Assembly: GCA_945860955.1 (NCBI GenBank) | Contig: CAMATH010000008.1 | Coordinates: 1-64,000 of the forward strand | Source of the DNA: Planctomicrobium piriforme | GTDB lineage: Bacteria > Planctomycetota > Planctomycetia > Planctomycetales > Planctomycetaceae | Direction of reading: 5' to 3' | Length of the DNA stretch: 64,000 nucleotides | In this document: positions 25,260 through 28,397 of the stretch, piece after piece | Numbering within the stretch: position 1 is the stretch's first letter | Layout: each line of letters begins with the position of its first letter | Notes under the pieces: model-generated | The model's input: the letters and a program-made list of their open reading frames with translations, nothing else | Database searches by the model: none | What the model was told of the DNA's origin: nothing | Position numbers and translations under genes: made by a program

Positions 25260-25541
25260 AGGGAATTCTCGCGAAGAGGGAAAGCCTATCGGGAGGATGA
25301 ATTGCGTGGATTCATCCCCGACACTCCACTGGAAGCAGTTCGGCTGTGAGTCGTAACTGATTGCCGGTTGATGGACTTCGGATGAACGCAGGGCGGGAAA
25401 AATCTCCCGCACTCCAGGGAAAATCCCCCGGAGCGTTCGCGAAAGGCTACCAGCACCGGGGGATCGACTTCAAATTTTCGCCTTCGAAGGAAAACCCTCT
25501 CGGGACGGGAGAATGGTCGGTTCCGTCATTGGCTTCCGCCG
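25260..25541. other. No gene seen; where a DGR reverse transcriptase would be expected
   Basis: In a DGR cassette a reverse transcriptase normally follows the template on the same strand. I find no reverse-transcriptase motif (such as YxDD) or long reading frame here, so that gene is deleted from this locus. Confidence 0.5.
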
Positions 25542-25594
25542 TTTGAGGGAGCTGAGGGCCAGACGGAAACCCAAGTTGTTGTTCCGGTTGTCGG
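25542..25594 (-). other. DGR template-repeat (TR) remnant, 3' end only
   Basis: On the minus strand the sequence reads CCGACAACCGGAACAACAAC then TTGGGTTTCCGTCTGG and CCCTCAG. Translated in the target frame it is PDNRNNNLGFRLALSSLK, the Asn-codon-rich (AAC) signature of DGR templates for FGE/C-type-lectin targets. It matches the 3' ends of the caspase-FGE genes. There is no start codon, signal or FGE body, so it is not a gene fragment in service. The 5' part of the template is missing: it joins directly to the accessory fragment at 25594. Confidence 0.72.
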
Positions 25595-25743
25595 TCGACG
25601 CAAAAACACCACAAAGACGCCGCGCCCTGTTCAAGCCAGCGACGTTCGACATTCAAAATCTGGTGAGTTCGCAGAAACAGGTTGAGTTCGTCCTCCGCAG
25701 GAGACGGACCGAGAATGGGAAGCACAAACGATCGATAAGCCAT
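25594..25743 (-). pseudogene. N-terminal fragment of a DGR-associated (HRDC-type) accessory protein
   Basis: 50 residues from ATG 25743: MAYRSFVLPILGPSPAEDEL then LNLFLRTHQILNVERRW and GAASLWCFCVD. From memory this pattern (small protein, ELNxFLxxHxILxVER, then GxxSxWxxCV) is the conserved N-terminus of HRDC-type accessory proteins coded beside DGR or related reverse transcriptases. The frame then passes straight into the template remnant at GTCGAC, so a deletion has fused the two. The position between target gene and template is the usual accessory place. Confidence 0.55.
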
Positions 25744-25774
25744 CAGACTCCCAGTTAACCAAAGGTGTGTCCAA

Positions 25775-25821
25775 AAAATTCGTTACGACGCGTCACGTTC
25801 CGCCGAATGCTGCGGTCCTCT
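25775..25821 (-). terminator. Terminator-like 3' element, copy 3 (distal part)
   Basis: Minus strand ACCGCAGCATTCGGCGGAAC, then CGTCGTAACGAATTTTTTGG. It matches the distal half of the elements at 10497-10570 and 14943-15010. The proximal half lies above 26546; the group II intron splits the element. Confidence 0.5.
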
Positions 25822-26546
25822 GTCGAGTAGGCCCGGGGGATTGCTCCCCCGGACCTCTCACAGAACCGGACTTGTGGTTCACACATCCGGCTCTTTGAAG
25901 TGAACATCAGCGTCGAAGACGTTCTCCGACACTCAACCTCACGTTCCGCTTGCGCTTCCCGCGAGGCTGCTGGATTCGGTCGTCAGGTTGAACTCGTTTG
26001 TGCAGCAGGCGTAGGCTCTTCCGCGGATTCGTCCGCGAACGCACCTCTCCCGCCCCCCAAAGGGCTGTCGGCGAACACGAGTATCAGGTTGACGTGACTC
26101 CACGCTTCTCACTCCATGACCCCCTTCGCTCCACCGGCTTTCACCGGCTTCAACGCTACTATGGGACCATCCGACTTCTCTCCCGGCTTCGGACTGCCGT
26201 TGTTTACCTTCGGCAACCCTACCGCACTTGCGGACCTGAAGAGATCTCTGAGGGTAAGAACGAACAATGTCCCGCTGCGCCCGTCCCCACTACCTGCCTG
26301 TCACGACTGGATATTGGGCTTAGCGTAAGGTGGCACGCTCACCCGGACAGGCCGGCCTTACGGGGCTTCACTCTCGTTCGGTGCTGCGGTTCGCCATCCG
26401 GCTTCCATTCCACACGCACTCGCGGGGAGGTCGCGCCCGATCACGTGACCGGTCACTTCCCGTGCAGTTGCCTTCGGCTCTTGGTTTCCTCCAGTTGGAC
26501 CCAAAAGGGACTTTCACCCTCAATTGTTCATTCATGCCTCACGCAC
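25822..26546 (-). mobile_element. ORF-less group II intron
   Basis: Minus strand 5' end GTGCGTGAGG, with the domain I hallmark GAGGGTGAAAGTCCC about 25 nt further in. The 3' end has a 31-nt domain V hairpin (25863-25893) and a domain VI-like hairpin (CCGGGGG/CCCCCGG), ending ACTCGAC. About 725 bp in all, with no reverse-transcriptase/maturase frame in either direction, so it would need help in trans. It is inserted in the 3' element of the caspase gene 26532-28397: removing it restores a sequence colinear with the other two copies of that element. Insertion beside a terminator-like hairpin is typical of class IIC introns. Confidence 0.72.
25863..25893 (-). ncRNA. Group II intron domain V
   Basis: Minus strand GAGCCGGATGTG, loop TGAAC, CACA, two-base AG bulge, TCCGGTTC: the 8-bp stem, bulge and short upper stem of domain V, the catalytic core of group II introns. 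Confidence 0.75.
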
Positions 26547-28397
26547 GTCCGGGCCTCCGCTCCCGGCTCCGCTCGACTGTTCCTGTTCGCCTGCTGACTG
26601 GACGGGACTCAGGGCCAGGCGGAAGCCCAAGATGTAGTTCCGGAGGCCGGGCGAGTTGAGGTAGCGAGCCGCCGACCGGCAGCGCACGGCGACGCTGTTC
26701 CAACCGCCGCCACGGAGCACCCGCAGCGAGCCCGTTTTTGCAACCGGGTCCGTTTTTCCAGGGAGTTTCGCTTCGTACGCGTCGAGGCACCACTCCCACA
26801 CGTTGCCGTGCATGTCGTGCAGCCCCCACTTGTTCGCCGGATACGAGCCGACCGTCGTCGTCCGTTTCAAATAGTCACCTTTGTTCGTTGTACCGTACGG
26901 GTTCGTTCCGTCACAATTCGCCTCGGTTCCGTTCAGGCTCGTGCCGAATGAAAACGGCGTCACACTCTCTTTCGTCCGGCAAGCGTACTCCCATTGCGCC
27001 TCCGTCGGCAGGGTGTACTGCCAACCGGTGGGGAGCCTCCCCGCCTTCCGCTCGGCCTCGGTGAACTTTTTGCAGAATTCGAGGGCGTCGTCGTATGAGA
27101 CCTGTTCGACGGGAAACTCCGCGGTCTGCTGGCCCGAAACACGTGATTTCCCTTCCCCCGTCGCGCAGAAATAGCTGGGATTCTTTCCCATGATCTTTTC
27201 GTACTGCGACTGCGTCACTTCGAATTTCCCCAACCAGAAGCCGCTCGACAGCGTGACGTCGACCTGGTCTTCTTCTCTATGCCCGGTTTCGTTTTTGGGA
27301 CTTCCCATGCGAAAACTGTCGGGGGGGCACCAGACCAACTTTAGCTTCAGGGCGTTGTCGTCGCGCACTTGGCCTTCCTGAGTCCGTTTTACCGTTCCAA
27401 TCACGCTCGCAGGCGATTCCTTCGGAATCGTGTTCTTCGGAATGTCGACTTTACCGGCATTGGGGCTGATCTTCGCCAGCACGCTCGCCGGGATCAGCAC
27501 GGGGGGCTGCCCTTCAAGATTCGATTTGAGGTTCGGATGTTGCTGCGCGCCGTCGTTCTTCAACTGCGGCACCGCTTCGATTCGCGCAGGGACCTCTTCG
27601 CGTACGAACCCCTGCAGAGAATCCCACGTCACTCGATTCTTCAGGTCAGCGCCGGCTCCCTTCAATCCATCCAGCACAGTGTGAAAAAACGCCCCGTGCC
27701 CGCCCCCGAACGCCTCGTTTTCATACGAGTATTCCCCTCGCGAACAACTCAGCAGCACCGCTGTCTGCGGCGGCAGTTCGGCAAGGGTCAACCGGTCGAT
27801 GCCGCCGGCGCTCCGCCGGGTTCCCTTCGATTTCGGTTCCGTGCGGCAGGCGTCGACCAGCACCAGCTTGGGACCGATTCCGCTGTCTTCCAGCGTCTGC
27901 AGCAATTGTGCGATGCTGAGCAGGGTTTTGGGGGCCTGCGGAACTTGTACGCGCCCTTCGTCTTCGAGAGTCATCGACGGATTAGCGTCGAGCGGGCAGA
28001 AAAAGCTGTCGCTGGAACCGCGCGGCTGCAAACCGTGCCCGGTCAGCCCCACGATGATCAGATCGCGCCGCGTCACCTCGCGCGATTCGAGGAATTCCTT
28101 GAGCCGATCGCGAATGTTGGCGGCGGTCGGCCGCAATTTGGCGTCTTTCTTTCCTCGCGCCCCAGAAAGGACCACCAAGTCGTATTCGGCCTGCTTAAGC
28201 AGTGCCGAGCTCGCTTCGACGTCGCGCTCGGTGTAGGGGAGCGGATCGAGGGCGGCATGATTGTATTCGGGAACGGCGACGAAAAACGCCAGCCGGCGGC
28301 CTGGGTCCTGGGCTTTGACCAGAACCGGAAGGCCGAACAAAGCGGCGGCCGGAATCAGACCGGCCAGCAGGAGTCGACGTCGCGGGAACTGTCGCAT
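26532..28397 (-). CDS. Tat-exported caspase-like protease fused to FGE domain, probable DGR target (paralogue 9)
   Basis: 621 aa from ATG 28397; a 91-residue longer reading is unsupported. Twin-arginine signal (FPRRRLLLAGLIPAAAL), caspase-like domain with His121 (LTGHG) and Cys184 (VDACR), linker, FGE domain (LPTEAQWEYACRTK, MHGNVWEWCLD, RVLRGGGW) and GLRNYILGFRLALSPVQ. The frame then runs on for about 28 residues and into the intron, which supplies the last codons and stop; without the intron it would end a few codons later in the 3' element. In the 18 nt aligned to the template remnant 5 of 9 adenines and 0 of 9 other bases differ. It lies immediately upstream of the accessory/template wreck, so it was the resident target of that cassette. 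Confidence 0.85.
   Translation of the reverse strand: MRQFPRRRLLLAGLIPAAALFGLPVLVKAQDPGRRLAFFVAVPEYNHAALDPLPYTERDVEASSALLKQAEYDLVVLSGARGKKDAKLRPTAANIRDRLKEFLESREVTRRDLIIVGLTGHGLQPRGSSDSFFCPLDANPSMTLEDEGRVQVPQAPKTLLSIAQLLQTLEDSGIGPKLVLVDACRTEPKSKGTRRSAGGIDRLTLAELPPQTAVLLSCSRGEYSYENEAFGGGHGAFFHTVLDGLKGAGADLKNRVTWDSLQGFVREEVPARIEAVPQLKNDGAQQHPNLKSNLEGQPPVLIPASVLAKISPNAGKVDIPKNTIPKESPASVIGTVKRTQEGQVRDDNALKLKLVWCPPDSFRMGSPKNETGHREEDQVDVTLSSGFWLGKFEVTQSQYEKIMGKNPSYFCATGEGKSRVSGQQTAEFPVEQVSYDDALEFCKKFTEAERKAGRLPTGWQYTLPTEAQWEYACRTKESVTPFSFGTSLNGTEANCDGTNPYGTTNKGDYLKRTTTVGSYPANKWGLHDMHGNVWEWCLDAYEAKLPGKTDPVAKTGSLRVLRGGGWNSVAVRCRSAARYLNSPGLRNYILGFRLALSPVQSAGEQEQSSGAGSGGPDVREA
26590..26720 (-). other. 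Variable region (VR) of caspase-FGE paralogue 9
   Basis: Approximate limits. 26631-26648 aligns to template 25575-25592: A to G, A to C and three A to T changes, no change at C or G. Beyond it toward the 3' end the two sequences share CTTGGG(C/T)TTCCG(C/T)CTGGCCCT with scattered silent differences. Confidence 0.6.

Follow-up and report, generated by a model that had tools for sequence, protein, structure and literature searches.

An ORF-deleted group II intron directly after a DGR target gene

Downstream of a hypervariable, immune-like caspase gene, a DGR-type target in a planctomycete, lies a 725-nt element with no open reading frame of its own, which raises the questions of what the element is, whether it can still splice, and whether it had any part in the decay of the neighbouring DGR. 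We addressed these questions in the window, that is, the whole 64,000-nt stretch of DNA analysed, and in the draft genome from which it comes. The element is a real, well-preserved, ORF-deleted group II intron, an ordinary kind of broken mobile element. Its history is most probably that of a group IIC-like retrointron which landed after the DGR target and then decayed.

Intron identity, relatives and the lost maturase

The intron lies on the minus strand and runs from GUGCG at 26546 to CUCGAC at 25822, in exact agreement with the limits that an earlier note on this DNA had proposed. That note had also recognized domain I, V and VI signatures by reading; a covariance-model search (cmscan, whole window) now finds them, with both Rfam matches above their gathering cut-offs (Table 1). 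The ends follow the GUGYG and AY consensus of group II introns, and in the alignment the first base is common to the window intron and its five long relatives. The fold of domains I to IV is supported by the 68.2-bit RF02001 match together with 88 of 97 conserved pairs, and in domains V and VI the motifs GAGCCG and CUACUCG are invariant in 10 of 10 sequences. We take these two motifs to carry the AGC triad of domain V and the branch point, and the bulged A 7 nt from the 3′ end, a position read in the sequence, is presumably the branch-point nucleotide. All three intron frames are interrupted by stops, leaving no maturase ORF, so that the description of the intron as ORF-less stands.

Table 1 Features of the intron, its exons and the flanking DGR remnant
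Feature	Coordinates	Strand	Evidence or remark
Group II intron, 725 nt, ORF deleted	25822..26546	-	GUGCG/CUCGAC ends, Rfam, covariation
Domain I core	26259..26429	-	RF02001 group-II-D1D4-3, 68.2 bits (cut-off 32)
Domain IV with maturase-start relic VFADSPLGGGRGAFADESA (from ~26078), then internal deletion	25900..26090 (limits approximate)	-	
Domains V and VI, bulged A 7 nt before 3′ end	25822..25895	-	RF00029 Intron_gpII, 44.8 bits (cut-off 40)
Caspase (Peptidase_C14) and FGE-sulfatase protein, DGR-type target; last 4 codons and stop inside intron	26532..28397	-	
3′ end of target variable repeat (VR)	26604..26648	-	Compared with 45-nt template remnant
5′ exon end, 5-bp hairpin (CCGGG, 8 nt, CCCGG), two nt (AC) before splice site	26547..26566	-	
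3′ exon, terminator-like element common to genes ending near 15.07 kb and 10.63 kb	25762..25821	-	
N-terminal 50 codons of DGR accessory-like ORF (MAYRSFVLPI...; MAYRSFVLPILGPSPAEDELNLFLRTHQILNVERRWLEQGAASLWCFCVD), truncated	25594..25743	-	
Template repeat (TR) 3′ end, remnant	25548..25592	-	

A distant blastn search against 72,556 plasmid records returned 8 records, led by Sinorhizobium meliloti SM11 (71.2% identity over query positions 23-523, in two records) and followed by Rhizobium leguminosarum and Novosphingobium resinovorum. One locus was taken from each of the three, and in each of them the D5-D6 region matches again about 1.4 kb downstream. These copies, on pSmeSM11b, unnamed3 and pSA2, respectively, are 70-71% identical to the window intron in the 5′ part (465-507 aligned columns; SM11 71% over 507) and 78-80% identical in D5-D6, but they are 1988-1994 nt long, against 725 nt. 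The SM11 and N. resinovorum introns each carry one annotated RT/maturase (ltrA), and that of R. leguminosarum two overlapping RT-domain ORFs. A search of genome contigs with a D5 pattern added five loci, planctomycete judging from their titles. Two are long copies, one from Adhaeretor (3434 nt, with a 172-residue RT frame as the only one seen) and one from a Phycisphaeraceae MAG (L058; 2031 nt, with an RT frame of 505 residues); the resemblance of L055 and L056 does not reach beyond D5-D6, and L057 is truncated where the available sequence ends. Because two of the five loci are long with RT coding, two are confined to D5-D6 and one is cut off, no second ORF-less copy is found among them, and we rejected the notion of a proliferating ORF-less lineage.

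The protein encoded by the SM11 relative has RVT_1 and GIIM domains and no endonuclease family at E≤0.001. Its nearest match in the PDB is the GsI-IIC RT (372 bits), ahead of 7uim (279), 5hhj (242), 5hhl (240), LtrA 5g2x (141) and 6me0 (109 bits), of which we take 5g2x to represent class IIA and 6me0 class IIB. It is because of this nearness to GsI-IIC RT that the window intron appears to be group IIC-like, a label that rests on the IEPs of its relatives; we do not call it a firm IIC member because only 2 of 4 IBS1-EBS1 positions pair in the window copy. With introns of the GsI-IIC type the window copy shares the group II ribozyme signature, and its relatives share the IEP affinity and lack of endonuclease domain seen in SM11, and the inverted-repeat sites found in four of five long relatives. 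It differs from them in its deleted IEP, in a site consisting only of a 5-bp hairpin, and in its poor IBS1-EBS1 pairing.

The missing maturase has left traces. An intron frame counted from the first base reads VNLILVFADSPLGGGRGAFADESAEE ('VFADSP...'), like the start of the relatives' ORF, and the relic in Table 1 resembles by eye the ORF start of the L058 copy, LSFVFADSPSGSSGATAADVSEA; tblastn aligns the relic to the N. resinovorum IEP with 9 of 10 residues at E 0.022, a match that is weak alone. After this start the nucleotide alignment breaks off, to be taken up again where the ORF of the relatives ends, immediately ahead of domain V. Since a relic of the ORF start is kept and the alignment picks up again at the ORF end, the IEP was probably lost when about 1.3 kb, measured against the ~2 kb relatives, was deleted from within domain IV, and we infer that the intron originally had an ORF.

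An intron of this kind could also be served in trans. The source genome is an 8.4 Mb draft of 282 contigs, 98.9% complete, in which the window lies on contig C8. The genome search for a maturase that had been suggested earlier found none in this draft: GIIM (PF08388) has no matches, with control matches in 3 of 14 genomes; none of six TIGR04416 matches exceeds the cut-off; and the L058 IEP has no match at E≤1e-30 among the best 15 of 24 candidates. The draft contains a single RF02001 (D1-D4) match and at least six D5-like places, two of them over the cut-off (150 of 641 candidates), and the intron DNA finds only short pieces outside the source genome among 99 genomes (best 5 candidates per genome). 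A multi-copy intron with a maturase may nevertheless be absent from a 282-contig assembly, and a maturase missed in this way could splice and move the intron in the same cell. This would suit the statement, in the relevant part of a review, that bacterial ORF-less introns nearly always co-occur with related introns in the genome (PMC4424553), as well as the E≤1e-30 matches to the L058 IEP in 30 of 99 genomes (the source genome being one of the 99) and the 90%-identical D5-D6 fragment on contig C104. Against it stand the draft genome's want of GIIM, of TIGR04416 matches over cut-off and of IEP matches, and its one RF02001 match, and we regard a mobile, trans-served intron as improbable.

The C104 fragment (L003, 1865-1942, minus strand) has no domain I-IV in 20 kb at Rfam gathering thresholds and looks like a 5′-truncated relic. 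By eye it seemed to be inserted in a palindrome, a reading rejected when 315 of 500 shuffles did equally well; the corresponding counts were 301 of 500 for L055 and 494 of 500 for L056. D5-D6-like sequences of a different type occur at three places, on C217 (L022, 1482-1560 and 3425-3502) and C190 (L023, 1201-1279); they resemble one another closely, have similar flanks and score below the Rfam cut-off.

Ribozyme structure and splicing potential

The 725-nt intron folds with a z-score of -5.8 against 20 shuffles. For the 5′ domain, the first ~325 nt of six copies (window, SM11, R. leguminosarum, N. resinovorum, L058 and Adhaeretor) were aligned, and RNAalifold gave a consensus of 97 pairs. In this consensus 95.0% of 579 cells are paired, a share that falls to 39-42% once partners are slid, and 37 of the 97 pairs show two-sided change, against 17.9 after shuffling, with none of 500 shuffles reaching 37; these figures are biased in favour of the structure, which was derived from the very alignment on which it was tested. 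All 97 pairs form in SM11 and R. leguminosarum, 95 in N. resinovorum, 89 in L058, 88 in the window copy (nine lost, one of them through a gap) and 84 in Adhaeretor (two gaps); 14 pairs are compensated on both sides between the window and Adhaeretor copies. D5-D6 comprises 28 pairs, six with two-sided changes among ten sequences. The ribozyme core is thus mostly paired, and self-splicing could in principle take place.

Of the nine window pairs that fail to form, five belong to the helix under the EBS1 loop (columns 200-207 against 253-260). The loop itself is placed where we take EBS1 to lie in domain I, a position supported by complete IBS1-EBS1 pairing (4/4) in the three plasmid copies; there the window copy pairs at 2 of 4 positions, short of the brief pairing characteristic of group IIC, while L058 reaches 3/4 and Adhaeretor one Watson-Crick and one wobble pair. 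Because this usual pairing is poor, the predicted splicing activity of the window intron is doubtful.

Two substitutes for EBS1 were considered. The end of the 5′ exon, CCCGGAC, has a full complement at intron position 199, and this re-specified EBS1 was dropped, because resampling the first 325 nt with a Markov model gave an equal match in 271 of 5000 cases and the complement recurs at position 693. The six exon ends can also pair with a block of 5 nt at column 41 of the alignment: counting wobbles, 28 of 30 positions match (equalled by 0 of 300 pseudo-exon sets), and with Watson-Crick pairs alone 20 of 30 do (equalled by 19 of 300). Three of the six copies have an identical exon end, so the block is left unexplained and was not used.

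The consequence of splicing can be read from the target gene. As the earlier note had proposed, the last codons of 26532-28397 are changed by the intron, in whose sequence the ORF ends: unspliced, the protein closes with ...PD-VREA*, and with the exons joined it closes in frame with ...PD-RGPQHSAERDAS*. This in-frame junction, the 88 of 97 pairs kept in the 5′ domain and the intact D5-D6 would fit a living intron that only splices, alone or with a host factor, in which case the target would properly end with the 12 residues gained by splicing. Something of this sort has been speculated for the maturase-free C.te.I1 of Clostridium tetani, an intron named in the same review (PMC4424553). The weak IBS1-EBS1 pairing and the concentration of losses below the EBS1 loop speak against such an intron, and since the C-terminal tail alone changes, selection to keep splicing would be expected to be weak. 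We therefore think a living, splicing-only intron unlikely, and prefer the reading of an intron in decay.

Insertion site and the decayed DGR

In four of six copies the insertion into a hairpin or terminator is clear. Inverted-repeat arms in the exons measure 19 nt in SM11, 13 nt in N. resinovorum and 18 nt in R. leguminosarum (0 of 500 shuffles each), and 14 nt with a mismatch in L058 (1 of 500). No spanning inverted repeat is found at the window site (475 of 500 shuffles as good), nor a clear one at the Adhaeretor site (172 of 500); the window has instead its 5-bp upstream hairpin and a shared terminator-like 3′ exon. Group IIC introns are described as targeting terminators and attC sites in the same part of the review (PMC4424553). 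Beside the inverted-repeat sites of L051, L052, L053 and L058, some 3′ flanks look transposase-like by eye.

The placement of the intron at the 3′ element that follows a DGR-type target, put forward in the earlier note, is upheld. The note had further claimed that excision rebuilds an element of two other caspase genes, and support for this is weak. The joined flanks give local scores of 42 and 36 against the genes at 15.07 and 10.63 kb (0 of 200 shuffles each), the 3′ exon alone 40 and 32, the intron end with the 3′ exon, unjoined, 40 and 35, and the 5′ exon with the intron start 22 and 23 (10 and 6 of 200 shuffles). By these scores the 3′ exon is clearly shared with the two caspase genes, and joining the flanks adds one or two points. 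The window contains a cluster of related genes at 4000-28400 on the minus strand, where blastn with the target finds nine other stretches of at least 400 nt, all on the same strand.

Compared with the 45-nt template remnant, the VR of the intron-bearing target differs at 5 of 10 A positions and 5 of 35 others. The corresponding counts are 6 and 1 for the 15 kb gene, 5 and 4 for the 10 kb gene, 5 and 10 for the 20 kb gene, and 6 and 13 for the 18 kb gene, and the cassette may have served more than one gene. The earlier view that this cassette has decayed agrees with our findings: the truncated accessory ORF runs directly into the template-repeat end, and contig C8 has none of the draft genome's five RVT_1 matches. 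The start of the accessory-like ORF resembles by eye that of an accessory protein on contig C49, MPIQLFQYPLPADPELTDLNTFLASHRVVAFHRE, whose C-terminal part is an HRDC domain. Past the template end, the sequence is similar to the region after the RT on contig C141 (69% over 201 columns, including the template end). The flanking DGR looks real and decayed, its RT and most of its TR gone.

Following the template repeat, C141 (L025, positions 1345-1544) and the window (25420-25599) have a terminator-like sequence in common (GATCCCCCGGTGCTGGTAGC...GGGGGATTTT), and C143, C198 and C26 also contain matches to it. What by eye may be another DGR lies on the short contig C258 (L024, 1-4503), where a fragment of an RT is found together with a template-repeat-like stretch and with a gene end resembling an FGE-type variable repeat.

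It had been suggested that the intron, by separating target from template, inactivated the cassette or marked the same loss event, and neither suggestion finds support. The intron alters only the last codons of the target and starts 57 nt past the compared VR stretch; the RT was removed by a separate deletion, which falls within the accessory gene some 230 bases past the 3′ end of the intron and does not require one. Separation itself should matter little, because the BPP-1 DGR works with TR and RT supplied in trans and, in the part of the study cited, requires nothing beyond +24 after the VR (PMC3240598). A more specific possibility is that the insertion broke a post-VR hairpin and disabled the DGR, whose cassette then decayed: in BPP-1, homing depends on a hairpin immediately following the VR (same part of PMC3240598), the intron lies in that neighbourhood, and the VR of its target has drifted at 5 of 35 non-A positions, compared with 1 of 35 in the 15 kb gene. 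The 57 nt, however, exceed the 4-34 bp of the phage DGR hairpins described there (PMC3240598), the better fit of the 15 kb gene to the same template implies that the cassette could serve other targets, and the accessory-gene deletion alone explains the loss of the RT. We hold a broken hairpin to have been a rather implausible cause, and nothing in these data indicates that the DGR was lost through the intron or together with it. No empty allele or intact DGR orthologue by which to date the two events was found among 59 genomes searched (its own included); three other genomes with a match gave only pieces under 100 nt.

Proposed history and significance

Taken together, our reading of a decaying group IIC-like intron would run as follows. 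An autonomous intron of about 2 kb with an RT/maturase would have entered, by retrohoming, a hairpin or terminator-like element directly after the DGR-diversified caspase-FGE gene. It would later have lost about 1.3 kb of its maturase gene through a deletion within domain IV, and with it its independent mobility, and the neighbouring DGR would have lost its RT through a separate deletion. In the cell the intron would most likely be an inert or weakly spliced insertion, with the last 12 residues of the target exchanged for 4. The landing by retrohoming, the order of events and the low splicing activity are what we infer; the identity, boundaries and relatives of the intron, its ORF relic, the missing RT and the want of a maturase in the draft genome are what the analysis shows.

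ORF-less group II introns are rare in bacteria, and C.te.I1 is the sole one known without an IEP-related gene in its genome, as far as the relevant part of a 2015 review goes (PMC4424553). With C.te.I1 and the trans-served forms the window intron shares the absence of an IEP, a largely kept ribozyme and the lack of a maturase detected in the genome. It differs in its relic of the IEP start, by which the loss looks secondary, in that its splicing is putative, and in that its genome is a draft. Given the rarity of such introns, one so well folded is worth recording.

Its position beside a DGR target recalls a parallel in stem-loop recognition, since group IIC introns, like DGRs, target stem-loop motifs according to the portion of the BPP-1 study cited (PMC3240598); as a single case it demonstrates no link. 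Among the matches listed in a literature search, no title dealt with DGR targets invaded by a group II intron, which is weak evidence of absence. It is conceivable, if very unlikely, that IIC-like introns use the 3′ elements of DGR targets as landing sites, reading the same class of hairpin as DGR homing does, and that the intron described here is a still-splicing, maturase-free passenger. If this were true, DGR targets would be hot spots of intron capture, and the passenger would sit in the transcript of an immune sensor.
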